Origin: Arthrobacter dokdonellae
GTDB lineage: Bacteria > Actinomycetota > Actinomycetes > Actinomycetales > Micrococcaceae
NCBI RefSeq assembly: GCF_003268655.1
Contig: NZ_CP029642.1
Coordinates: 3,162,001-3,226,000 of the forward strand
Direction: 5' to 3'
Length of the DNA stretch: 64,000 nt
Shown: piece after piece, positions 13,992 through 23,429 of the stretch
Position numbering within the stretch: the stretch's first letter is position 1
How the letters are laid out: each line of letters starts with the position of its first letter
Notes under the pieces: generated by a model
Told to the model about the DNA's origin: nothing
Databases searched by the model: none
The model's input: the letters and a program-made list of their open reading frames with translations, nothing else
Made by a program: the position numbers and the translations under genes

Positions 13992-14456
13992 TCAGCAGCC
14001 CTCAAAGTCCGTCAGGACCTGCACCTTGGCGGCCGAAGCCGAGCCGGTGTCGAAGGAGTAACCCAGCCATTCCCTGGCCAGGCGCCGGGCCAATTCGACG
14101 CCGATGACGCGCTGGCCCATCGTGAGCACCTGGCAGTTGTTGGACAGGACAGAGCGCTCGACCGAAAACGAGTCATGCGCTGTGGCGGCTCGGATGCCCT
14201 CGACCTTGTTGGCCGCGATGGCGACACCGAGGCCGGTGCCGCAGAACAGTATGGCGCGGTCGGCCTGGCCGTTCCTGATCATCTCCCCGGCAGCAATGCC
14301 GACGTACGGATACGGCCGCGTGAACTCCGCGTCGCCGCGGTTGACGCCGATGTCGATGACTTCGCTGATCCGGGGATCGGCCCTGGCATCCGCCAGGACC
14401 CGGTCCTTGTAGTCAACGCCCGCTTCGTCGGCGCCCACGATGAGCCGTATTCCCAT
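13992..14456 (-). CDS. rpiB: RpiB/LacA-family sugar-phosphate isomerase
   Basis: This 154-residue protein begins MGIRLIVGADEAGVDYKD and contains the phosphate/ring-opening loop GTGLGVAIAANKVEGIRAA and the segment NNCQVLTMGQRVIG. The usual active-site Cys of RpiB (FCGTGxG) is present as LFCGTGLG. It interconverts aldose and ketose phosphates in the cytosol. Beside a DhaK-type kinase it is more likely a D-erythrulose-4-phosphate isomerase (DerI/EryI type) than the ribose-5-phosphate enzyme. Start is at 14454-14456 after AAGGAAG; an ATG seven codons earlier overlaps the kinase stop. Confidence 0.9.
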   Translation of the reverse strand: MGIRLIVGADEAGVDYKDRVLADARADPRISEVIDIGVNRGDAEFTRPYPYVGIAAGEMIRNGQADRAILFCGTGLGVAIAANKVEGIRAATAHDSFSVERSVLSNNCQVLTMGQRVIGVELARRLAREWLGYSFDTGSASAAKVQVLTDFEGC

Positions 14457-14473
14457 GGTGATCTCTTCCTTCG

Positions 14474-16216
14474 TCATTGCTTGGCCGCGGCCAATTGGTT
14501 GATGTTCGCCAGGTGGGGCCCCATCACGGTGAAGACCATGGCCAGGGACGTGGCGCCCGGATCGGGCGTCCCGATGCTCTTTTCGGCGAGCGGCCGGGCC
14601 CGGCCCAGCCGGGGGCGCAGCCCTGCCGTCGCTGCGGCTGCCGCTGTGGCTTCGACGGCAGCAGCAGTCCAGGCGGCCGCCACGTCCACGCCTTCCGCCA
14701 GGTGCCGGCCAAACGCCGCAGTGAGGGGGACCAGGGCGTCGACCATGGTCTTGTCCCCCGGCTCCGCCTTGCCCAGCCCTTGGATCCGGGCAGCAAACGC
14801 ATTCACGGCTTCGAGCAGCCGGCCCGGGGTGGGCGCCGTGCTGTCCCCCAGCGTTTCGCCGAGGCTGCGCAGCCCGGCACCCCACAGGACGCCTGAGGTT
14901 CCTCCGGCCTTGTCCGCCCAGGCGTCACCGGCCTCGGCGAGAACAGTCCCCGCACCGGCGCCCAGTCCGAGGGTCCCCACGGCGGCCGCGACGGCGGCGT
15001 CGATTCCGCGGACCATGCCGCGTCCGTGGTCGCCGTCGCCGGCGATGGCGTCCAAGTCCCCCAGCATCGCTTCCGCGTCGTGGACGGCCCGCGCTGCCGC
15101 CTCCAGGGCGGCCACGCAACGGCGGGCGTAGGCCTTCGAGTCGTCGCCGGCCGAGTAACGGGCACCGCCGGGGACGGTGCCGCCCGCCTCAATCCAGTCG
15201 TCCTGACCGGCCGGCGACGCAACGTTCCCGCGCTTGTACGCCGGCGACTCCGCCGGAGCGCACCAGAGCGGCTCGAGTTCGTCGTCGAGCCACGTGACTG
15301 TCAGCGACACGGCTGCCATGTCGAGGCTCGTGACGAGCTCCCCCACCTCCGGCATGACGAGTTCGTAGCCGGCGCCGCGCAGCAACGGCGCCACGGTCCC
15401 CCACAGCACAAACAGTTCCTCGTACTTGGTGGAGCCCAGGCCGTTAAGCACCACGGCAATCCGCTGGCCGGACCCGGACGGCGTTTCCGCCAGGATCCGG
15501 GCCACAAGTTCCCGGCCGAGTTCGTCCGCCGTCGGAAGCGCCATGTCCAGGAGACCGGGCTCCCCGTGGATGCCCAGCCCGAGCCCCATTTGCATCTCGC
15601 CAAGGGTGAAGAGCGCGGCGTCGGCGCCGGGAAAGGTGCAGCCGTGGAAGGCGCTGCCGATGGTCCGCGTGCTGCTGTTGGCCTTGCGGCCCAGGCGCAC
15701 CACCTCCGCCAGGCTGGCCCCCGCTTCGGCGGCGGCGCCCATGACCTTGAAGACCGTAAAGTCCCCCGCAATCCCGCGGCGCTTGGCACTTTCCCCGGGT
15801 GCCGCGCTGGCGATGTCGTCCGTGACCACCACGTTGTCAACGGCGACGGCCTCTGCCGCCAGCCGCTCCGTGGCCAGGCCGAAGTTCATGACGTCGCCGG
15901 CATAGTTCCCGTAGGCGAAGACGACGCCGGCTCCCTGGTCCGCTGCTTTGGCCACGGCGTACGCCTGCTGCGCCGACGGGGACGTGAAGATGTTGCCGAC
16001 CACGGCGCCGTCAACCAGCCCCGGGCCGATGAAGCCGGCGAAGGCCGGGTAGTGCCCTGAGCCGCCGCCGGCCAGAACAGCCACCTTCGGCGCGGCGGAG
16101 CGGTGCCGCCGGATGGCACCGCCGGGGACCTGCCGGACCAGGTTCGCGTTGGCGTCGCAAAACCCTGCCAGGGCCTCCTCGGCAAACCTTGCCGGGTCGT
16201 TGAATAGTTTGGTCAT
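14474..16216 (-). CDS. Single-chain DhaK-DhaL kinase (dihydroxyacetone/tetrulose kinase family)
   Basis: This 580-residue protein fuses DhaK (about 1-330) to DhaL (about 375-580). In DhaK, GGGSGHYPAF and NYAGDVMNFG carry the first His and the Asp, and LGLGIHGEPG carries the His that binds the substrate carbonyl covalently. In DhaL, IAGDGDHGRGM and KTMVDAL supply Mg-ATP ligands and KAGGTSGVLWGAGL the nucleotide cap. Such fusions use ATP, not a phosphotransferase protein. Tyr-Pro-Ala-Phe instead of the usual Glu-Pro-Ala-His after GSGH suggests a substrate other than dihydroxyacetone. L- or D-erythrulose is my favoured guess. Confidence 0.93.
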   Translation of the reverse strand: MTKLFNDPARFAEEALAGFCDANANLVRQVPGGAIRRHRSAAPKVAVLAGGGSGHYPAFAGFIGPGLVDGAVVGNIFTSPSAQQAYAVAKAADQGAGVVFAYGNYAGDVMNFGLATERLAAEAVAVDNVVVTDDIASAAPGESAKRRGIAGDFTVFKVMGAAAEAGASLAEVVRLGRKANSSTRTIGSAFHGCTFPGADAALFTLGEMQMGLGLGIHGEPGLLDMALPTADELGRELVARILAETPSGSGQRIAVVLNGLGSTKYEELFVLWGTVAPLLRGAGYELVMPEVGELVTSLDMAAVSLTVTWLDDELEPLWCAPAESPAYKRGNVASPAGQDDWIEAGGTVPGGARYSAGDDSKAYARRCVAALEAAARAVHDAEAMLGDLDAIAGDGDHGRGMVRGIDAAVAAAVGTLGLGAGAGTVLAEAGDAWADKAGGTSGVLWGAGLRSLGETLGDSTAPTPGRLLEAVNAFAARIQGLGKAEPGDKTMVDALVPLTAAFGRHLAEGVDVAAAWTAAAVEATAAAAATAGLRPRLGRARPLAEKSIGTPDPGATSLAMVFTVMGPHLANINQLAAAKQ

Positions 16217-16257
16217 GGTGCTGCTCTCCTGCTGTGGACTCGGGCCCGGGATGGGGC

Positions 16258-17034
16258 TTAGTGGAGGTGGCTGCCGCCGTTGATGTCCACCGTGGTGCCC
16301 GTCAGGTACGCGGCGTCCTCGGAGGAGAGGAAGGTGATGACGGCGGCGATTTCCTCGGTGGTGGCGGTGCGGCCCACGGGAATGTCGCGGGCGATGGCCG
16401 CCTCCTGCTCGTCGGTGCTGCCGACGCGGATGTTGGTGTCCACGGCGCCCGGCGTGATGGCGTTGACCGTGACTCCTGTATCGCCTATTTCGCGGGCCAG
16501 GGCCTTGGTGAACCCGAGGATGGCCGCCTTGGCCGAGGAGTAGGGAACCTTGCCGAAGACGCCGCCGCCGCGCTGGGCGGACACGGAGGACATGTTCACG
16601 ATGCGGCCCCATCCGGCGTCGATCATTCCCGGCAGGAAGGCCTTGGTGACGAGGTAGGTGCCGGTGGCGTTGACGGCGAAGATCTTGTTCCACAGTTCCA
16701 GGGTGGTTTCCAGGAACGTCACCGGCGAGGTGATGCCGGCGATGTTGACGAGGGCGCCCACGGTGGGCAGGTTGCCCGCGGCCACCTCGGCCTGGACGGC
16801 GCCGTGCGCGGTGGCCACGGAATCCTCGCTGGCGACGTCGATGGCGTGGCCGAAGGCGGGGACGTTGAATTCGTTGCCGACCTCCATGGCCACCTTGGCG
16901 GACTTCTCGCCGTCGAGGTCCAGGATGACGACGGCCCAGCCTTCGCGGGCGTAGCGGCGGGCGGTGGCGAGGCCGATGCCGCGCTCGGAGGTGGCTCCGG
17001 TGAGGACGGCGGTGCGCTGGATGGCGTTGGACAT
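16258..17034 (-). CDS. Short-chain dehydrogenase/reductase
   Basis: This 258-residue classical SDR has a dinucleotide site TGATSERGIGLATARRYA at residue 12, the LVNIAGI segment, catalytic Ser in NMSSVSAQRGG, Tyr/Lys in PYSSAKAAILG and a C-terminal DINGGSHLH. Asp at the end of strand 2 (VVILDLDGEK) favours NAD(H). Start is at 17032-17034 after AAGGAGA. In this cluster it would oxidise a polyol to a ketose, for example threitol or erythritol to erythrulose. The substrate is an inference from position. Confidence 0.92.
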   Translation of the reverse strand: MSNAIQRTAVLTGATSERGIGLATARRYAREGWAVVILDLDGEKSAKVAMEVGNEFNVPAFGHAIDVASEDSVATAHGAVQAEVAAGNLPTVGALVNIAGITSPVTFLETTLELWNKIFAVNATGTYLVTKAFLPGMIDAGWGRIVNMSSVSAQRGGGVFGKVPYSSAKAAILGFTKALAREIGDTGVTVNAITPGAVDTNIRVGSTDEQEAAIARDIPVGRTATTEEIAAVITFLSSEDAAYLTGTTVDINGGSHLH

Positions 17035-17059
17035 GATTCTCCTTGAAGGGTGGGTGGAA

Positions 17060-17884
17060 CTAAATGAGGGTGGAAATATGGGTGGCGGCCTGTGCGGCAG
17101 CGGTGGCCCGTTCGCCGTCGGCCACGTCACGGGTCTCGAGTTCGAGCGAAAAGTGCCCGGTGTAGCCCTTGGACTTCAGGGCGGAGAGGCCGGCGGCGAA
17201 GTCGGCGTCGCCGTTGCCTATGCTGAGGTTGATGTTGCCCGGCACGGCGTCCCGGAGGTGGACGTGGGTGATGGTCGCGTGGAAGCGTTCCACGAAATCC
17301 AGCGGGTCTGCCCCGGACGCCACGATGTGGCTGAAGTCCATGACGGTTCCGACGCCGGACCCGGCCAGCCTGCCGATGAGCAGGCCGGCGCGGTCCAGGT
17401 CCGAGCACAGCCGGAAGTAATGCAGCGCCTCCGTCCACAGCTCGACGCCCATGGCGACCGCGCGCCGCTGGGCGCTCGTGAGGGCGGAAGCGACCGCGTC
17501 CAGATCCGCGTCCAGGCCCTGGACCGGCTCCCGGCTGGGGGCGCCGCAGGGAAGGACGAGCGCCTTGGCCCCGGTCTCGACGGCGAGCGCCAGGAGCATC
17601 TCGAGGTGGCGGCGCCGGTCCCTTTGCGCGCCGGCATCCAGAGTGGCATTGAAGTCGCCAATGTCGCCGTTGACCGAACGGACCTTCAGGCCCGACGCGG
17701 CGATTTGCCCGGCAACGGTGCGGACGTCCTCCTCGCCCAGCTCGTAGGGAACGTGGTCGCAGACGCCGGGAAGGGCGCCGAGGTCGATCTCCTCGAAGCC
17801 AAGCCCGGCCATGGTCTGCAGGGCGTCCGGGAGATCCAGGTGACGGAAGCTGATCGACGAACAGCCCAGCCGGGGATTGAACAT
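17060..17884 (-). CDS. Xylose-isomerase-like TIM-barrel sugar (phosphate) isomerase/epimerase
   Basis: This 274-residue AP-endonuclease-2-fold barrel begins NPRLGCSSISFRHLDLPDAL. Conserved metal-site segments include VELWTEALHYFRL (Glu), GTVMDFSHIVASG (Asp, His), ITHVHLRDAVPGN (His) and HFSLELETRDVAD (Glu). Family members isomerise or epimerise sugars and sugar phosphates. In threitol/erythritol pathways a homologue (LerI/EryH type) converts L-erythrulose-1-phosphate; in apiose pathways a homologue isomerises apiose. It is the first gene of the leftward arm, with AAGGAG before its ATG. Confidence 0.9.
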   Translation of the reverse strand: MFNPRLGCSSISFRHLDLPDALQTMAGLGFEEIDLGALPGVCDHVPYELGEEDVRTVAGQIAASGLKVRSVNGDIGDFNATLDAGAQRDRRRHLEMLLALAVETGAKALVLPCGAPSREPVQGLDADLDAVASALTSAQRRAVAMGVELWTEALHYFRLCSDLDRAGLLIGRLAGSGVGTVMDFSHIVASGADPLDFVERFHATITHVHLRDAVPGNINLSIGNGDADFAAGLSALKSKGYTGHFSLELETRDVADGERATAAAQAATHISTLI

Positions 17885-17951
17885 TGGTGTTGCTCCTTAC
17901 GTGGGACCGCCACCCGCAGCCCGGGTGACGAGAACCACACTAGAACGTTTT

Positions 17952-17988
17952 ACTGTCAACAGTCAACCTTCGAAGTTGACTGTTGACA
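17952..17988. promoter_or_regulatory. Large inverted-repeat operator between the two arms of the sugar cluster
   Basis: TGTCAACAGTCAAC at 17954-17967 is exactly complementary to 17975-17988, with a 7-base loop. Each arm also contains a smaller ACTGT-NN-ACA palindrome (17952-17963 and 17979-17988). The same motif is found at 18023 and 21406. The position between divergent operons fits binding by the GntR/FadR protein encoded at 21453. Confidence 0.75.
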
Positions 17989-18022
17989 AACAGAAATGAT
18001 TCAGGTCACACTGGCGTATCAT

Positions 18023-18032
18023 CTGTTAACAG
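18023..18032. promoter_or_regulatory. CTGTTAACAG operator, third site
   Basis: This perfect 10-bp palindrome lies 53 bases upstream of the MFS start and about 35 bases from the larger repeat. It matches the core of the other sites. Its closeness to the start suggests repression of the rightward arm. Confidence 0.65.
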
Positions 18033-18084
18033 TCGACACCATGATGCCGCAGCATCAGTCGCCGTTTGAAAGGTAATTACGACC

Positions 18085-19422
18085 ATGAGCAATGAAGCTC
18101 TCACCATGCGCGGACCGGTCCACGGCACCAAGGACGCCAGGCGCGTGGCCCTTGGTTCCAGCGTGGGCGCCGTCATCGAAACGTACGACTTCATCGGTTT
18201 CGGAACGGCCGCCGCCCTGTACTTCGGCACCGCGTTCTTCCCGGGCGCCGATCCCGTCACCGGCACCCTGGCCTCCTTCGCCACCCTGGGGGTGGGCTTC
18301 GCAGCCCGGCCGCTCGGCGGCATTATTGGCGGCCACCTCGGCGACAAGCTGGGACGCAAGCCAGTGCTGGTTGCATCGCTGGTCCTGATGGGACTGGCCA
18401 CGTTCGCCATCGGCCTGCTGCCCACCTACGCAACAGTGGGGCTCCTGGCGCCGGCCCTGCTGGTGTTTGTCCGCATTGTCCAGGGCCTGGCCTTCGGCGC
18501 GGAATGGGGCGGCGCCATCCTCATGAGCTACGAACACGCTCCATGGAAGAAGAAGGGCAAGTACACCGGCATGGTCCAGGCCGGCTTCCCCGTCGGCCTG
18601 CTGCTGGCGAACCTCGTCTTCCTCTTCAGCGTCCACCTGGGCAATTCGTGGGCCTGGCGCATCCCGTTCCTGGGCAGCATCTTCCTGGTCATTGTCGGAT
18701 TGATCATCCGGTCCAAGGTGCCCGAGTCCCCCGTGTTTGACGAGGTCAAGGCCTCAGGCACCATCGTCAAGTCGCCGATCGTGGAAGTCATCAAGACGGA
18801 CTGGCGCAACATTGTGCGCGGCATCGGCCTGCGCATCGCCGAGACGGCCGGCTACGCCGTGTCCATCACCTACATGATCTCCTACCTCCACACCACCGGC
18901 CTTTCCAGCAAGACCGAGACCCTCGTTGCCCTGAGCGTTGCCGCGGCCATCGGCATCTTCGCCACCGCCGCCTGGGGCCACCTCACCGACAAGATCGGAC
19001 GCCGGCCCCTCTACATCTGGTCCTGCGCGTTCGCCGTGCTGTTCGCCTTCCCCATGTTCCTGCTGGTCAACACCGGCCTGTCCATCCTCATCATCCTGAC
19101 GGTCATCATTTCCTACGCCGTCTGCCAGAACTCCCTTGCCGGTGCCCAGGGCCCATGGTTCCCCGAACTCTTCCAGGCCAAGACCCGCGCCTCCGGAGCG
19201 TCCCTGGCCTACCAGATCTCCGCCACGGTCTCCGGCTTCACCCCGTTCATCACCACGCTGCTGTTCATCAGCTTCGGCTGGGCCGGCCCCGCCGCACTCT
19301 TCATGCTCTACGCCCTCATCGGCCTGGCCGCCGCCATCAGCACCCGGGAAACCTGGGGCAGGCGCGAACGCCAGCTGGCGGATGAGGCCACCAAAAGCAC
19401 CCCGCTGACAGTCAACGCCTAA
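18085..19422 (+). CDS. MFS transporter, metabolite:H+ symporter family
   Basis: This 445-residue, 12-helix inner-membrane carrier starts VIETYDFIGFGTAAALYFGT and carries GDKLGRKPVLVAS and GHLTDKIGRRPLYIW, the two MFS loop motifs. It is related to the carrier at 6265 but clearly a different protein. Its place at the head of the transketolase arm, behind the shared operators, makes it the likely importer of the cluster's substrate. Confidence 0.92.
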   Translation: MSNEALTMRGPVHGTKDARRVALGSSVGAVIETYDFIGFGTAAALYFGTAFFPGADPVTGTLASFATLGVGFAARPLGGIIGGHLGDKLGRKPVLVASLVLMGLATFAIGLLPTYATVGLLAPALLVFVRIVQGLAFGAEWGGAILMSYEHAPWKKKGKYTGMVQAGFPVGLLLANLVFLFSVHLGNSWAWRIPFLGSIFLVIVGLIIRSKVPESPVFDEVKASGTIVKSPIVEVIKTDWRNIVRGIGLRIAETAGYAVSITYMISYLHTTGLSSKTETLVALSVAAAIGIFATAAWGHLTDKIGRRPLYIWSCAFAVLFAFPMFLLVNTGLSILIILTVIISYAVCQNSLAGAQGPWFPELFQAKTRASGASLAYQISATVSGFTPFITTLLFISFGWAGPAALFMLYALIGLAAAISTRETWGRRERQLADEATKSTPLTVNA

Positions 19423-19444
19423 GCCCACGAAAGGCAGAAATCAC

Positions 19445-20341
19445 ATGTCCACACTGGACACGACCACCACGCGGCCCACGGCCGGCGGCACGTTCGAAGA
19501 CCGCCGTCGGACTGTCTCCGACGCCGCCTACCGCATCCGGCACCACGCCCTGAACATGGGCGAGGTCCAAGGCCAGGGCTATGTCGGCCAGGCCCTCGGC
19601 GCGGCGGACATCTTCGCCACCGTCTACGCCAGCCAGCTCACCTACCGCGCCGGCCAGCCCGACTGGGCCGGACGCGACCGCTTTCTGCTCTCCACCGGCC
19701 ACTACGCCATCGGCCACTACGCCGCCCTGGCCGAGGCCGGAATCGTCCCCGTCGAGGAACTGGAAAGCTACGGCTCGGACGACTCGCGCCTGCCGATGTC
19801 CGGGATGTCCACCTACACGCCCGGCATGGAAATCTCCGGCGGCTCCCTCGGCCACGGGCTCTCCATCGCCGTCGGCATGGCCCTGGGCCTGCGCCACCAG
19901 GAATCCAGCGCCCGCGTGTTCAATTTCCTCTCCGACGGCGAACTTGACGAAGGCTCGACCTGGGAGGCCGCCATGGGGGCCCACCACCACCAGCTGGGCA
20001 ACTTGACGGCCATGGTGGACATCAACGCGCTCCAGGCCGACGGCAAGACGGACACCGTCCTGCGCACCGAGCCCGTGAAGGACAAATGGACGGCCTTTGG
20101 CTGGTACGCCCAGCGCATCGACGGCAACGACACTGCCGCACTGCTGGAGGCCTTTGACAACGCGGCCGCCCGGGCCGCCACCCACGGCCAGCCCTCGGTG
20201 ATCCTCTGCGACACCAAGGTGGGCAGGGGCGTGCCCCTGCTGGAGGACCGGGAAAAGGCGCATTTCATGCGCATCGAAGAGCACGAGTGGCAGATCTGCC
20301 GCGAGCAGCTGAGCAACGGCTTTGAAGGGACGGCCCACTGA
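19445..20341 (+). CDS. Transketolase, N-terminal (thiamine-diphosphate/PP) subunit
   Basis: This 298-residue protein equals the first third of transketolase. It shows HHALNMGEVQGQGYVGQALG, GRDRFLLSTGHYAIGHYAAL, SGGSLGHGLSIAVGMALGLR, and the ThDP/Mg motif SDGELDEGSTWEAAM ending near VDINALQADG. It needs the product of the next gene for activity. Its TGA overlaps that gene's ATG by one base, so the subunits are made together. It would transfer a two-carbon unit between sugar phosphates such as erythrose-4-phosphate, or act on apulose-4-phosphate. Confidence 0.94.
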   Translation: MSTLDTTTTRPTAGGTFEDRRRTVSDAAYRIRHHALNMGEVQGQGYVGQALGAADIFATVYASQLTYRAGQPDWAGRDRFLLSTGHYAIGHYAALAEAGIVPVEELESYGSDDSRLPMSGMSTYTPGMEISGGSLGHGLSIAVGMALGLRHQESSARVFNFLSDGELDEGSTWEAAMGAHHHQLGNLTAMVDINALQADGKTDTVLRTEPVKDKWTAFGWYAQRIDGNDTAALLEAFDNAAARAATHGQPSVILCDTKVGRGVPLLEDREKAHFMRIEEHEWQICREQLSNGFEGTAH

Positions 20342-21339
20342 TGGCCAACACGCTGGCACCGACCAAAAGACTGAAGACCTCCGCCATGATCGCCTCGTTT
20401 GCCGACCCGGGGCAGAAGACCGCTTCCGCCCCGTTCGGGCACGCGCTGGCCAAGGCCGCGGAGGCGGACGAGCGGATCGTGGGCCTGACCGCGGACCTGG
20501 GCAAATACACCGACATGCACATCTTTGCCCAGCAGCATCCGGACCGCTTCTTCCAAATGGGCATGGCCGAACAGCTCCTCTTCGGCGCCGCGGCCGGCAT
20601 GGCCCAAACCGGGCTCATCCCCTTCGCCTCAACGTACTCGGTCTTCGCCGCACGCCGTGCCTACGACTTCCTCTGCCTCGACATTGCCGAGCCCAACCTC
20701 AACGTCAACATCATTGGCGGCCTGCCGGGGCTGACGACCGGCTACGGCCCCAGCCACCAGGCCACCGAGGACATGGCCATCTTCCGCGGCATGCCCAACC
20801 TGACCATCGTGGACCCTTGCGACTCCGTTGACATTGAACAGGCCGTGCCTCAGCTGGCCGCCAGCGACGGGCCCACGTACCTGCGACTCCTGCGCGGGAA
20901 CGTGCCCACGGTCCTGGACGAATACGACTACACCTTTGAACTCGGCAAGGCCAAGGTGCTTCGCGGCGGCAACGACGTGGTCCTGGTCTCCAGCGGCCTG
21001 ATGACGATGCGCGCCCTCCAGGCAGCCAAGGCCCTGGAGGCACACAAGGTGGATGTCGCCGTCGTACATGCCCCCACCATCAAGCCCTTCGACTCGGCGA
21101 CTGTCCTGGCCGAGCTGGCCGGCGACCGGCTGGCCGTGACGCTGGAGAACCACACGGTGGTTGGCGGACTGTTCGAGACCGTCGCCTCGGCCGTGGTCAC
21201 CGCCGGGCTCGGCAAGCGGGTGGTTCCCATCGCCCTGCCGGACGAGTTCCTCGATGCCGGTGCCCTGCCGACGCTCCACGAGCGCTACGGCCTCTCCGTG
21301 TCACGCATCGTGGAGAAGGTGCTGGCCGAACTGGGCTGA
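20341..21339 (+). CDS. Transketolase, C-terminal (pyrimidine-binding) subunit
   Basis: This 332-residue protein covers the PYR and C-terminal domains of transketolase. DRFFQMGMAEQLLFGAAAGM holds the Glu that activates the ThDP ring, ASTYSVFAARRAYDFLCLDI follows, and a C-terminal domain around KVDVAVVHAPTIKPFD comes last. It forms a heteromer with the preceding gene. Split transketolases are usual in accessory sugar pathways rather than the housekeeping pentose phosphate pathway, which uses one 660-700-residue chain. Confidence 0.94.
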   Translation: MANTLAPTKRLKTSAMIASFADPGQKTASAPFGHALAKAAEADERIVGLTADLGKYTDMHIFAQQHPDRFFQMGMAEQLLFGAAAGMAQTGLIPFASTYSVFAARRAYDFLCLDIAEPNLNVNIIGGLPGLTTGYGPSHQATEDMAIFRGMPNLTIVDPCDSVDIEQAVPQLAASDGPTYLRLLRGNVPTVLDEYDYTFELGKAKVLRGGNDVVLVSSGLMTMRALQAAKALEAHKVDVAVVHAPTIKPFDSATVLAELAGDRLAVTLENHTVVGGLFETVASAVVTAGLGKRVVPIALPDEFLDAGALPTLHERYGLSVSRIVEKVLAELG

Positions 21340-21359
21340 CTTTCGCCGCCGGGCAGCCG

Positions 21360-21392
21360 CAGGCGCGGGACCTCCCACTGGTCCCGCGCCTG
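21360..21392. terminator. Perfect 13-bp hairpin after the transketolase genes
   Basis: CAGGCGCGGGACC at 21360-21372 pairs exactly with 21380-21392 across a 7-base loop. It lies between the transketolase stop and the regulator gene and has no following T-run. It probably limits read-through into the regulator. Confidence 0.65.
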
Positions 21393-21405
21393 TGGCGTAG
21401 CATCA

Positions 21406-21429
21406 ACTGTTAACACCTGACAGTAAACA
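21406..21429. promoter_or_regulatory. Operator in front of the GntR gene
   Basis: ACTGT-N9-ACAGT forms an inverted repeat (21406-21410 and 21420-21424), and CTGTTAACA at 21407-21415 copies the core of the operators near 18 kb. This indicates that the regulator controls its own gene and the whole cluster. Confidence 0.65.
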
Positions 21430-21452
21430 ATCGCACCTTCAAGGATCACACC

Positions 21453-22112
21453 ATGCCAGCAGCCACTGCCTCCCTCCTCGGGTTGGAAAAGAAGAGCCTC
21501 CGCGAACAGGCGGTTTCCGCGCTGCGCGCCGCCATCACCAGCGGCGCCCTGGAGCCCGGCAGGCACCTGGTGGAGACCGAGCTCTCCGACATGCTGCAAA
21601 TCAGCCGGGGCACGTTGCGCGAGGCGCTCCGCCAGCTGGAGCAGGAAGGGCTGCTCTCCGCCGGCGCCCGCGGACGCCTCTCCGTGCGGCACCTTGACGC
21701 CAAGGAAATCCGCGACATCTTCGCCGTGCGGGCCACCCTGGAATCCCTCGCCGTGCGCACGCTGTGTGAACTGCCCAACCGGTCCGCGGTGATCAAGTCC
21801 CTGCGCGCCGCCGCCAACCACATGAAGTCGGCCGCCAAGGGCACGCTGGAGGCCCGGATCGAGTCGGACCTCGAGTTCCACCGGACGCTCTGCAAGCTCA
21901 GCGACAACCAGACCCTGCTCCATTCCTGGGAATCACTGGAGGGGTCCATCCGGATGTCGATCATGTTTGCCGGGCTGGAACGGGCCGTCAAGAACATGGA
22001 CGTTGACCGGCACCTCGAGATCGTGGAGGCGATTGAGACCGGCGACCCCGAGGCCGCACAGTCCGCCGTTCTTGGGCACATGGACGTGGCGGCGGAGAAT
22101 CTGGTGGCGTAG
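21453..22112 (+). CDS. GntR-family regulator, FadR/FCD subfamily, of the sugar cluster
   Basis: This 219-residue protein has a winged-helix domain at residues 14-80 (VETELSDMLQISRGTLREAL, RQLEQEGLLSAGARGRLSV). An FCD domain follows, with candidate metal ligands in RIESDLEFHRTLCKLSDN and VDRHLEIVEAIETGD. AAGGAT precedes the ATG. The matching palindromes before this gene and between the divergent arms make it the likely repressor of the whole 14-22 kb unit, released by a pathway intermediate. Confidence 0.92.
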   Translation: MPAATASLLGLEKKSLREQAVSALRAAITSGALEPGRHLVETELSDMLQISRGTLREALRQLEQEGLLSAGARGRLSVRHLDAKEIRDIFAVRATLESLAVRTLCELPNRSAVIKSLRAAANHMKSAAKGTLEARIESDLEFHRTLCKLSDNQTLLHSWESLEGSIRMSIMFAGLERAVKNMDVDRHLEIVEAIETGDPEAAQSAVLGHMDVAAENLVA

Positions 22113-22305: not shown

Positions 22306-23094
22306 TCAGTCGAAGGGGAACATCGTTCTGGTGGTGCGCCCGATGACGCCTGTCATCGTGGCATCAACCGTTCCTCCGATGACACCACCGACCAGCGGTA
22401 TTCCTTTCGCCAAGGTGACTAGCGAGCGCTTACTGCCGTATTTGGCCAGAAGCATGAAGCCGGCCTTCTTGTTGATCTGGCGAATGACCGCAATTGGAAT
22501 GCTCTTAATCGCCTGAAGTGCAACCTTCTCGCCGACTTTAAGGCCGACTGCCTTGGCGATCTGTTGTGCGTTGGAGCCGACTGCGATGAGCGTCGCTACC
22601 GTGCGGACGTGCGGATCCTTCGGGTCGTACCCTCTTAGGTAGGCTATTGCCGCGGCCAGTCTGGCGTTAATCACGAGTGCACCAGCCATGTTGGCGGGGA
22701 TGGTCACCGGCATCGCGATGAACCCGCCAAGGCCCGTCACGAAACCGTTGACGCCGGCTGCTTCGACTGACTCGACGATCAGCCTCTTGATTGCCTTTTC
22801 AACATCAGCGCGCTCATCCGAATCAAACATTCTTGTCGGGCCGAAGTTGGGCTGGTATCGCGGCCCCTGGACTCGGCACAACCGGTCCTCTGCCCATGCA
22901 ATCGACCCCGACAAAGGACCAACACCTGTGTCGATCACTTTTCCGACCAGTTTCAGGAGCTGCCCGGACGCCCTTTCTGCCACGGTTTCCGGTAATTCCT
23001 CAGACTCAACGACGGTTTCCCCGGGCATTTCCTGGGATTCAATCGCGACATCGTCCGGCGTTTCCTCCGGTTCGAGTGTGGTCGTGCTGGTCAT
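22306..23094 (-). CDS. EcsC-family protein
   Basis: This encodes 262 residues from the ATG at 23092-23094 (GGGGGAAG upstream). The in-frame extension of 57 codons upstream lacks coding character. After an acidic, Thr/Glu-rich N-terminus of about 45 residues comes the EcsC domain, with VNGFVTGLGGFIAMPVTIPA, GALVINARLAAAIAYLRGYD and LAKGIPLVGGVIGGTVDATM. Family members are membrane-associated; B. subtilis EcsC accompanies an ABC exporter, but no exporter is next to this gene. GC at third positions is lower than in its neighbours, suggesting recent transfer. Confidence 0.88.
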   Translation of the reverse strand: MTSTTTLEPEETPDDVAIESQEMPGETVVESEELPETVAERASGQLLKLVGKVIDTGVGPLSGSIAWAEDRLCRVQGPRYQPNFGPTRMFDSDERADVEKAIKRLIVESVEAAGVNGFVTGLGGFIAMPVTIPANMAGALVINARLAAAIAYLRGYDPKDPHVRTVATLIAVGSNAQQIAKAVGLKVGEKVALQAIKSIPIAVIRQINKKAGFMLLAKYGSKRSLVTLAKGIPLVGGVIGGTVDATMTGVIGRTTRTMFPFD

Positions 23095-23429
23095 TGCGCT
23101 TCCCCCTGAGCTCTTGGATATGCATCTCAAAGGTTGAGAAGCTCCCCGCGACGGACCGTCCACCTCGATCGGCGACATGGACAGTCTTTTGAGCACTGTA
23201 ACAGGGCAGGACACCAAACAAAGAGAGAGGCCCGTCTGATCTGTGCCGATAAATCTAATCCGCATGCCGAACGGCAGCCGACAAGGCGATGTTCAAGACT
23301 CCTACACCGTCGGTTACGTCCACCTCCCCAGCGGCAATAACACTCGGTCGTCGGGACGCGCGGCGCGGACGACCGGGCACCAAAGGAGGTCCCGCCGTCG
23401 CACGTCATCCGCGACCGGTTGACGCCCGG
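23095..23429. other. Intergenic region, lower GC
   Basis: No gene is visible. It holds the promoter region of the EcsC gene and the end of the aldo/keto reductase transcript. GC is lower than average up to about 23330, in line with transfer of the EcsC segment. Confidence 0.35.

Follow-up and report, generated by a model that had tools for sequence, protein, structure and literature searches.

The locus described here is a cluster of eight genes at positions 13992 to 22112 of the window, by which we mean the whole analysed stretch of 64,000 nucleotides from Arthrobacter dokdonellae (contig NZ_CP029642.1, positions 3,162,001 to 3,226,000). The cluster contains a split transketolase and may serve the use of a short sugar acid. 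Family-profile scans of the window proteins confirmed the positions and domains of the eight genes named in a preliminary description of this DNA. One arm comprises an RpiB-type isomerase, a fused DhaK-DhaL kinase, a short-chain dehydrogenase/reductase (SDR) and a TIM barrel, and the other a major facilitator superfamily (MFS) carrier, the two subunits of a transketolase and a regulator of the FCD-GntR type. The features are as follows:

13992..14456, minus strand: RpiB/LacAB-family sugar-phosphate isomerase (PF02502)
14474..16216, minus strand: single-chain DhaK-DhaL kinase, predicted tetrulose-kinase type (PF02733 and PF02734)
16258..17034, minus strand: SDR dehydrogenase, proposed first oxidation step (PF13561/PF00106; YxxxK present)
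17060..17884, minus strand: metal-type TIM-barrel isomerase/epimerase (PF01261)
17885..18084, no strand: divergent promoter region with putative operators at 17952-17963, 17979-17990 and 18022-18033 (motif scan and 80-locus comparison)
18085..19422, plus strand: MFS carrier of the metabolite:H+ symporter (MHS) type (TIGR00883 and shikimate transporter model, both below cut-off)
19445..20341, plus strand: transketolase N-terminal subunit (PF00456)
20341..21339, plus strand: transketolase C-terminal subunit (PF02779 and PF02780)
21406..21417, no strand: putative operator 5' of the regulator gene (2 mismatches to the motif)
21453..22112, plus strand: GntR-family regulator with FCD domain (PF00392 and PF07729)

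A scan with an alignment of the barrel retrieved 185 relatives, the best 80 of which were kept, 67 of these with full flanks. The kept loci are mainly from Arthrobacter, Paenarthrobacter and Pseudarthrobacter, and also from Aldersonia and Mycolicibacterium/Mycobacterium. This comparison of gene neighbourhoods, which had been suggested for the barrel, showed that the SDR, the MFS carrier and the GntR regulator are each present in all 67 full-flank loci and both transketolase subunits in 66 of them, with a conserved gene order. The transketolase, the kinase and RpiB are found together in 52 loci, ten have the transketolase and neither the kinase nor RpiB, two lack only RpiB, two only the kinase and one only the transketolase. 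Kinase and RpiB are thus both present in 53 loci, both missing from ten, and one occurs alone in four. The most constant part of the regulon is the dehydrogenase, the transketolase and the carrier. The same cluster is also carried by a 1.35-Mb plasmid of Arthrobacter sp. StoSoilB13, where the barrel and RpiB were each matched in two pieces, indicating broken genes or sequence errors.

Of 297 genomes of the order, an evenly drawn sample, 14 have more distant barrel orthologues (at least 39% identity), and 13 of these 14 also have the transketolase (Fisher p 2e-18, a value that ignores relatedness and overstates independence). The full gene set surrounds the barrel in G183, G085 and G207, G005, G024, G041, G275, G118 and G146 have the barrel, the SDR and the transketolase without the kinase, and both arrangements occur in G023. 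On a 15-kb contig, G176 has the barrel and the transketolase but no SDR. The barrel locus of G134 consists of barrel, SDR, MFS and GntR genes only, and the transketolase is located elsewhere in that genome with an SDR and an MHS carrier of its own.

The palindrome ACTGTYRACAGT occurs between the arms at 17952 (exact), 17979 and 18022, and before the regulator gene at 21406. With at most two mismatches, it recurs in 80 of 80 gaps between the barrel and MFS genes of the related loci and in 77 of 77 measurable gaps between the genes for the transketolase C-subunit (TKC) and GntR, and its density is 18.8 per kb in the barrel-MFS gaps, while the remainder of these loci has 0.10 per kb. Because it is conserved in all of these gaps, the palindrome is very likely the operator to which the GntR regulator of the cluster would bind. 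The gene set is real and conserved, joint control of it is very likely, and the earlier proposal of one regulon with shared palindromes is supported at this locus. In the genome of A. dokdonellae as a whole, the motif is not enriched (10 places at one mismatch at most, two of them at this locus, versus 15 for the reversed control), and therefore no wider regulon is shown. Regulators with an FCD domain commonly sense acids.

The two transketolase subunits share 60-68% identity with their counterparts in eight proteobacterial clusters (the N-terminal subunit 60-65%, versus 33% to AptA). In a maximum-likelihood tree, the window enzyme is placed in a clade of 21 sequences (UFBoot 99), which is separate from the apt group (support 99), consisting of the apt enzyme of E. 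coli SE15 and a Rhizobium enzyme from a cluster with an FGGY kinase, and from the two housekeeping-type transketolases of its own genome. The motifs AD[LM].KYTD and GYGPSH are present in 20 of 20 C-subunits of the clade in the tree, and none of the six comparators has them. They are also present in 76 of 76 C-subunits of the 80-locus set, which overlaps the tree set, that aligned over at least 300 residues, and the context of the catalytic glutamate, MAEQ, is likewise retained in all 76. In our reading, the KYTD stretch aligns with the region of ordinary transketolases whose residues we take to hold the substrate phosphate. The clade is uncharacterised and spans Actinobacteria and Proteobacteria, where it is accompanied by a carrier and by either an SDR or an L-threonate-dehydrogenase-like enzyme; no description of this combination of transketolase clade, dehydrogenase and acid-type carrier was found in the literature searched, nor, as previously stated, of any pathway with exactly the gene set of this locus.

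These results support the idea of a dedicated split transketolase. The suggested relationship to AptA/AptB of the D-apiose pathway is not supported, although those subunits also form a split transketolase dedicated to a catabolic cluster, together with SDRs in E. coli SE15. The window subunits are only 33% and 31% identical to AptA and AptB of that strain (apt genes identified by locus tag from the accessible part of PMC13001218) and belong to a separate clade. Furthermore, the kinase of the apiose cluster is of the FGGY family and its carrier is a sugar ATP-binding cassette (ABC) type, whereas the cluster studied here has a DhaK kinase, an acid-type carrier and no FGGY match among its eight proteins. 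Other split transketolases were seen on plasmids. One from Shinella (NZ_OZ012600.1, 3681-9105), with a C-subunit 40% identical to that of the window, is flanked by mtnK-mtnA on one side and by a RuBisCO-like gene with a sugar ABC carrier on the other, where a transketolase step following the phosphorylation of methylthioribose is possible. Another, on the Agrobacterium plasmid pAspH13-3a (6108-9255), is followed by an aminotransferase and an ABC carrier and falls outside the clade of the window enzyme.

The genes beside the clade transketolase bear on the nature of the substrate. Full-length clade transketolases (at least 65% identity) were found in 17 of the 297 genomes of the order, leaving out G080, which gave a partial-length match, and three genomes at 39-41%. 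In 16 of the 17, an SDR of the family in the window is present in the same stretch; in the remaining genome, G176, the transketolase is directly preceded by an L-threonate-dehydrogenase-like gene. We also compared 20 proteobacterial loci, chosen to cover a wide range of taxa among rows with 59% identity or more (14 from the 30 matches listed of 706 matching records and six from the 40 listed of 579), of which 18 have annotated records. Nineteen of these contain an SDR, all of one family, and the 20th, on a plasmid of Klebsiella aerogenes, has an L-threonate-dehydrogenase-like gene instead.

The carriers in the 17 genomes belong to the MHS (11), tripartite ATP-independent periplasmic (TRAP; 4) and GntP (2) types, G176 being counted as MHS from a partial gene about 10 kb from the transketolase, and those in the 20 proteobacterial loci are TRAP (14) and MFS (6) carriers. 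Five of the six proteobacterial MFS proteins were scanned, and four were nearest to the D-galactonate (ACS) model and one to MHS, all below cut-off; the window carrier similarly scored 348 bits with TIGR00883 and 312 bits with the shikimate transporter model, both under the cut-off. Carriers of the MHS, ACS, TRAP and GntP families mostly, not only, take organic acids. The TRAP binding proteins of actinobacterial and proteobacterial loci are related, four of the proteobacterial ones being 34-54% identical to that of G023, and the best solved sequence match is 4P47. Residues Arg152, Arg173 and Asn213, which are described as carboxylate-binding in the accessible text of PMC11668362, are retained in seven of seven TRAP binding proteins tested; solved relatives hold pantoate or erythronate according to the same text, most such ligands having co-purified. 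The four carrier families around one transketolase clade favour an acid over a neutral sugar as the substrate. Of the proposed four-carbon or branched sugar, the small size and the likely C4 or branched skeleton are supported.

We consider it an even call whether these genes form a regulon for using, via oxidation and transketolase, a short sugar acid (aldonate), which would most likely be a C4 tetronate such as threonate or erythronate, or a close branched relative. The carrier would import the acid, and the SDR, or the L-threonate-dehydrogenase-like enzyme in the two relatives above, would oxidise it to an acid with a terminal hydroxymethyl ketone, which from a tetronate would be 3-oxo-tetronate. 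A transketolase donor requires such a ketone, which arises in a tetronate by a single oxidation at C3 and in longer acids by oxidation adjacent to the terminal carbon. The split transketolase would then pass two carbons on to glyceraldehyde 3-phosphate, so that xylulose 5-phosphate is formed and a short oxo-acid is left, which for a tetronate would be glyoxylate. The metal barrel may epimerise or isomerise the keto intermediate, making further stereoisomers usable as transketolase donors, and the DhaK-DhaL kinase and RpiB may form an optional branch in which a C4 ketose drawn from this pool is phosphorylated and isomerised. The FCD-GntR regulator would control both arms via the ACTGTYRACAGT sites.

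A C4 substrate is pointed to, without proof, by the two threonate-dehydrogenase-like stand-ins, by a Pararhizobium locus, and by the kinase and RpiB, which are of types known from tetruloses. In Pararhizobium, the cluster adjoins otnK (by annotation), otnC (over the cut-off) and otnI (301 of 325 bits), so that this genome contains the gene sets of both routes side by side. The tetronate pathway, with LtnD, OtnI, OtnK and OtnC, is among the nearest known systems, and LtnD-like enzymes recur beside the clade transketolase. The difference is that neither OtnK nor OtnC is found among the eight window proteins, and the transketolase is proposed to replace the kinase and the decarboxylase.

The kinase, RpiB and barrel were also examined for what they indicate about the substrate. 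The kinase contains the motifs HGEPG and GDGDHG and scored 728 bits with NF011049, over the cut-off of 492, whereas the glycerone kinase equivalog TIGR02361 was not reached (340 bits, under 575), so the earlier assignment to a tetrulose-kinase type is upheld as a predicted activity class. Candidate substrates may be erythrulose or dihydroxyacetone, formed via decarboxylation of a 3-oxo-acid, or a co-imported C4 ketose. The kinases of the cluster, among them that of G007, which is without transketolase, form their own clade (support 89), apart from kinases located beside genes similar to triose-phosphate isomerase (TPI). They thus look tied to the SDR/barrel pathway, and not randomly recruited. 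RpiB scored 168.1 bits with TIGR02133, just below the cut-off of 168.2, and only 130.4 of 240 bits with NF051858 (DerI), which does not bear out a DerI/EryI type. However, NF051858 is by name a rhizobial-type model, so the low score would be compatible with a DerI/EryI activity.

The predicted model of the barrel (pLDDT 93.8) has ketose 3-epimerases/isomerases as its nearest folds, and E152, D183, H209 and E248 are invariant in 20 aligned rows. The PF01261 fold is thus combined with the Glu-Asp-His-Glu set, which we take to be the metal ligands of ketose 3-epimerase/xylose-isomerase-like barrels. The modelled barrel resembles ketose epimerases in a fold that is shared by epimerases, isomerases and decarboxylases. 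The earlier comparison with LerI/EryH fails, as the TPI-like genes of erythrulose-type clusters, to which LerI/EryH presumably belong, are of the family PF00121 and not PF01261.

A pathway for a tetrulose or tetritol, close to the preliminary description, is a rather unlikely alternative. In such a pathway, the SDR would oxidise threitol or erythritol, or erythrulose would enter directly, the barrel would interconvert D- and L-erythrulose, and the kinase and RpiB would form erythrose 4-phosphate. The transketolase would use either L-erythrulose, giving xylulose 5-phosphate and glycolaldehyde, or erythrose 4-phosphate. The subfamily of the kinase and its pairing with RpiB in the 67 loci favour this pathway, as do a barrel of similar fold solved with L-erythrulose (5h1w) and G007, which has only the SDR, barrel, kinase and RpiB. 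A DhaK-family kinase and an RpiB-family isomerase are presumably also paired in the threitol/erythritol pathways of Mycolicibacterium smegmatis (LerK, DerK, LerI, DerI). A short description of these pathways is found in the accessible part of PMC12780249. However, the cluster studied here differs from them in that it contains no TPI-like gene (PF00121) among its eight proteins and adds the transketolase and the acid-type carrier, and its SDR is below the GolD/DthD cut-off (146 of 286 bits). The carriers from four acid-type families also speak against a tetrulose, and a DhaK-type kinase was matched in only two of the 20 proteobacterial stretches (L142 and L161), leaving 18 without.

The genome of A. 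dokdonellae has a second cluster (C1:1306000-1322000) with a PF01261 barrel, a DhaK-DhaL kinase (52% identical to that of the window), RpiB (62%), a 3HCDH-type dehydrogenase, an SDR, two MFS carriers, a 2-hydroxyacid dehydrogenase and a TPI-like gene of PF00121. It looks like an L-erythrulose-type pathway, and the genome would thus contain two tetrulose-kinase-type systems.

A branched acid is a less probable substrate, and we regard this route as unlikely. Here, apionate or a relative would be converted to 3-oxo-isoapionate, from which the transketolase would produce xylulose 5-phosphate and hydroxypyruvate, or which a barrel would decarboxylate to L-erythrulose for the kinase or the transketolase; the names ApnO and OiaC presumably belong to this pathway. 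The barrels of two rhizobial transketolase clusters are 29-33% identical to those in clusters of Erwinia E602, G275, G146 and G118. A PF16896 gene was confirmed in two of the latter clusters, those of Erwinia and G275, and their distance to the transketolase cluster is about 7-25 kb in G275, G146 and G118. However, the window barrel matched neither of the rhizobial barrels at E 1 and is only 22% identical over 135 residues to that of Erwinia, and no PF16896 match was found among the eight window proteins. The clusters in G275, G146 and G118 all contain matches to a PF01261-type barrel, DhaK-DhaL and RpiB, and the PF16896 oxidoreductase, a GntP carrier and a PF00121 gene were confirmed in that of G275 (L154); they represent an apionate-to-L-erythrulose-like set near the transketolase cluster.

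A C6 acid is improbable. An aldonate would give 5-keto-gluconate on oxidation, or its epimer through the action of the barrel, and the transketolase would split this into xylulose 5-phosphate and tartaric semialdehyde. The SDR and the GntP and MHS carriers would fit; transketolase has been proposed to cleave 5-keto-gluconate in grapevine, and a mutant E. coli enzyme is reported to do so (accessible part of PMC11066805). This route leaves the kinase and RpiB without a job, and no gluconate 5-dehydrogenase was among the matches listed (25 of 223 SDR families). We give very little credence to a sulfonated C4-C6 sugar being used in the manner of the sulfo-TK pathway. As described in passages of PMC9594981, that pathway combines a split transketolase, SqwGH, with SqwI, a PF02502 isomerase proposed to act on sulfo-tetroses, on C6 and C4 intermediates, and the text of PMC11668362 that was accessible indicates that the TRAP residues are also able to hold a sulfonate. 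However, the substrate there is a sulfonate, the passages name no kinase, and the comparison is one of descriptions. In addition, family scans recognised no sulfonate-specific gene among the eight window proteins, and the kinase would be odd.

Several observations weigh against the sugar-acid interpretation favoured above. The case for a tetronate is built on gene context and on below-cut-off matches, the L-threonate-dehydrogenase-like proteins scoring 201-316 of 350 bits. The window SDR shares only 40-45% identity with its proteobacterial counterparts, and the window MFS carrier has no match at 1e-5 to the MFS carriers of the proteobacterial clusters, and therefore the substrates of the two groups may differ. 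The carrier families are not restricted to acids, and the three TRAP residues are conserved widely across the TRAP family. A plain tetronate route leaves RpiB without a clear job, and its near-strict pairing with the kinase rather suggests a tetrulose. G007 has no clade transketolase anywhere in its genome, and seven barrel genomes with the transketolase and without the kinase in the same stretch all encode a 50-54% identical kinase elsewhere, so "optional" may, for the kinase, just mean encoded in trans. Finally, the barrel is rare outside the group (four of 396 genomes of a phylum sample at 1e-25 and three plasmid records at 1e-10), and it is therefore not a general part of the transketolase module.

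Apart from the cluster itself, a gene for an EcsC-family protein (22306-23265) is located directly 3' of the regulator gene on the opposite strand.

The sugar-acid interpretation leads to a broader proposal, which we hold tentatively and at slightly less than even confidence, of an undescribed route common to Actinobacteria and Proteobacteria. One dehydrogenase and a dedicated split transketolase would convert an unphosphorylated short aldonate into xylulose 5-phosphate and an oxo-acid, without a kinase or a decarboxylase, with the Lys-Tyr of the KYTD motif, at or near the phosphate site, perhaps holding the carboxylate. If true, this would open a new way into the pentose phosphate pathway, in which textbook transketolases act on phosphorylated sugars, and it would provide a function for the two-subunit genes that are annotated merely as "transketolase" in many genomes and plasmids. 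These enzymes would also be possible biocatalysts for making or using keto-acids.

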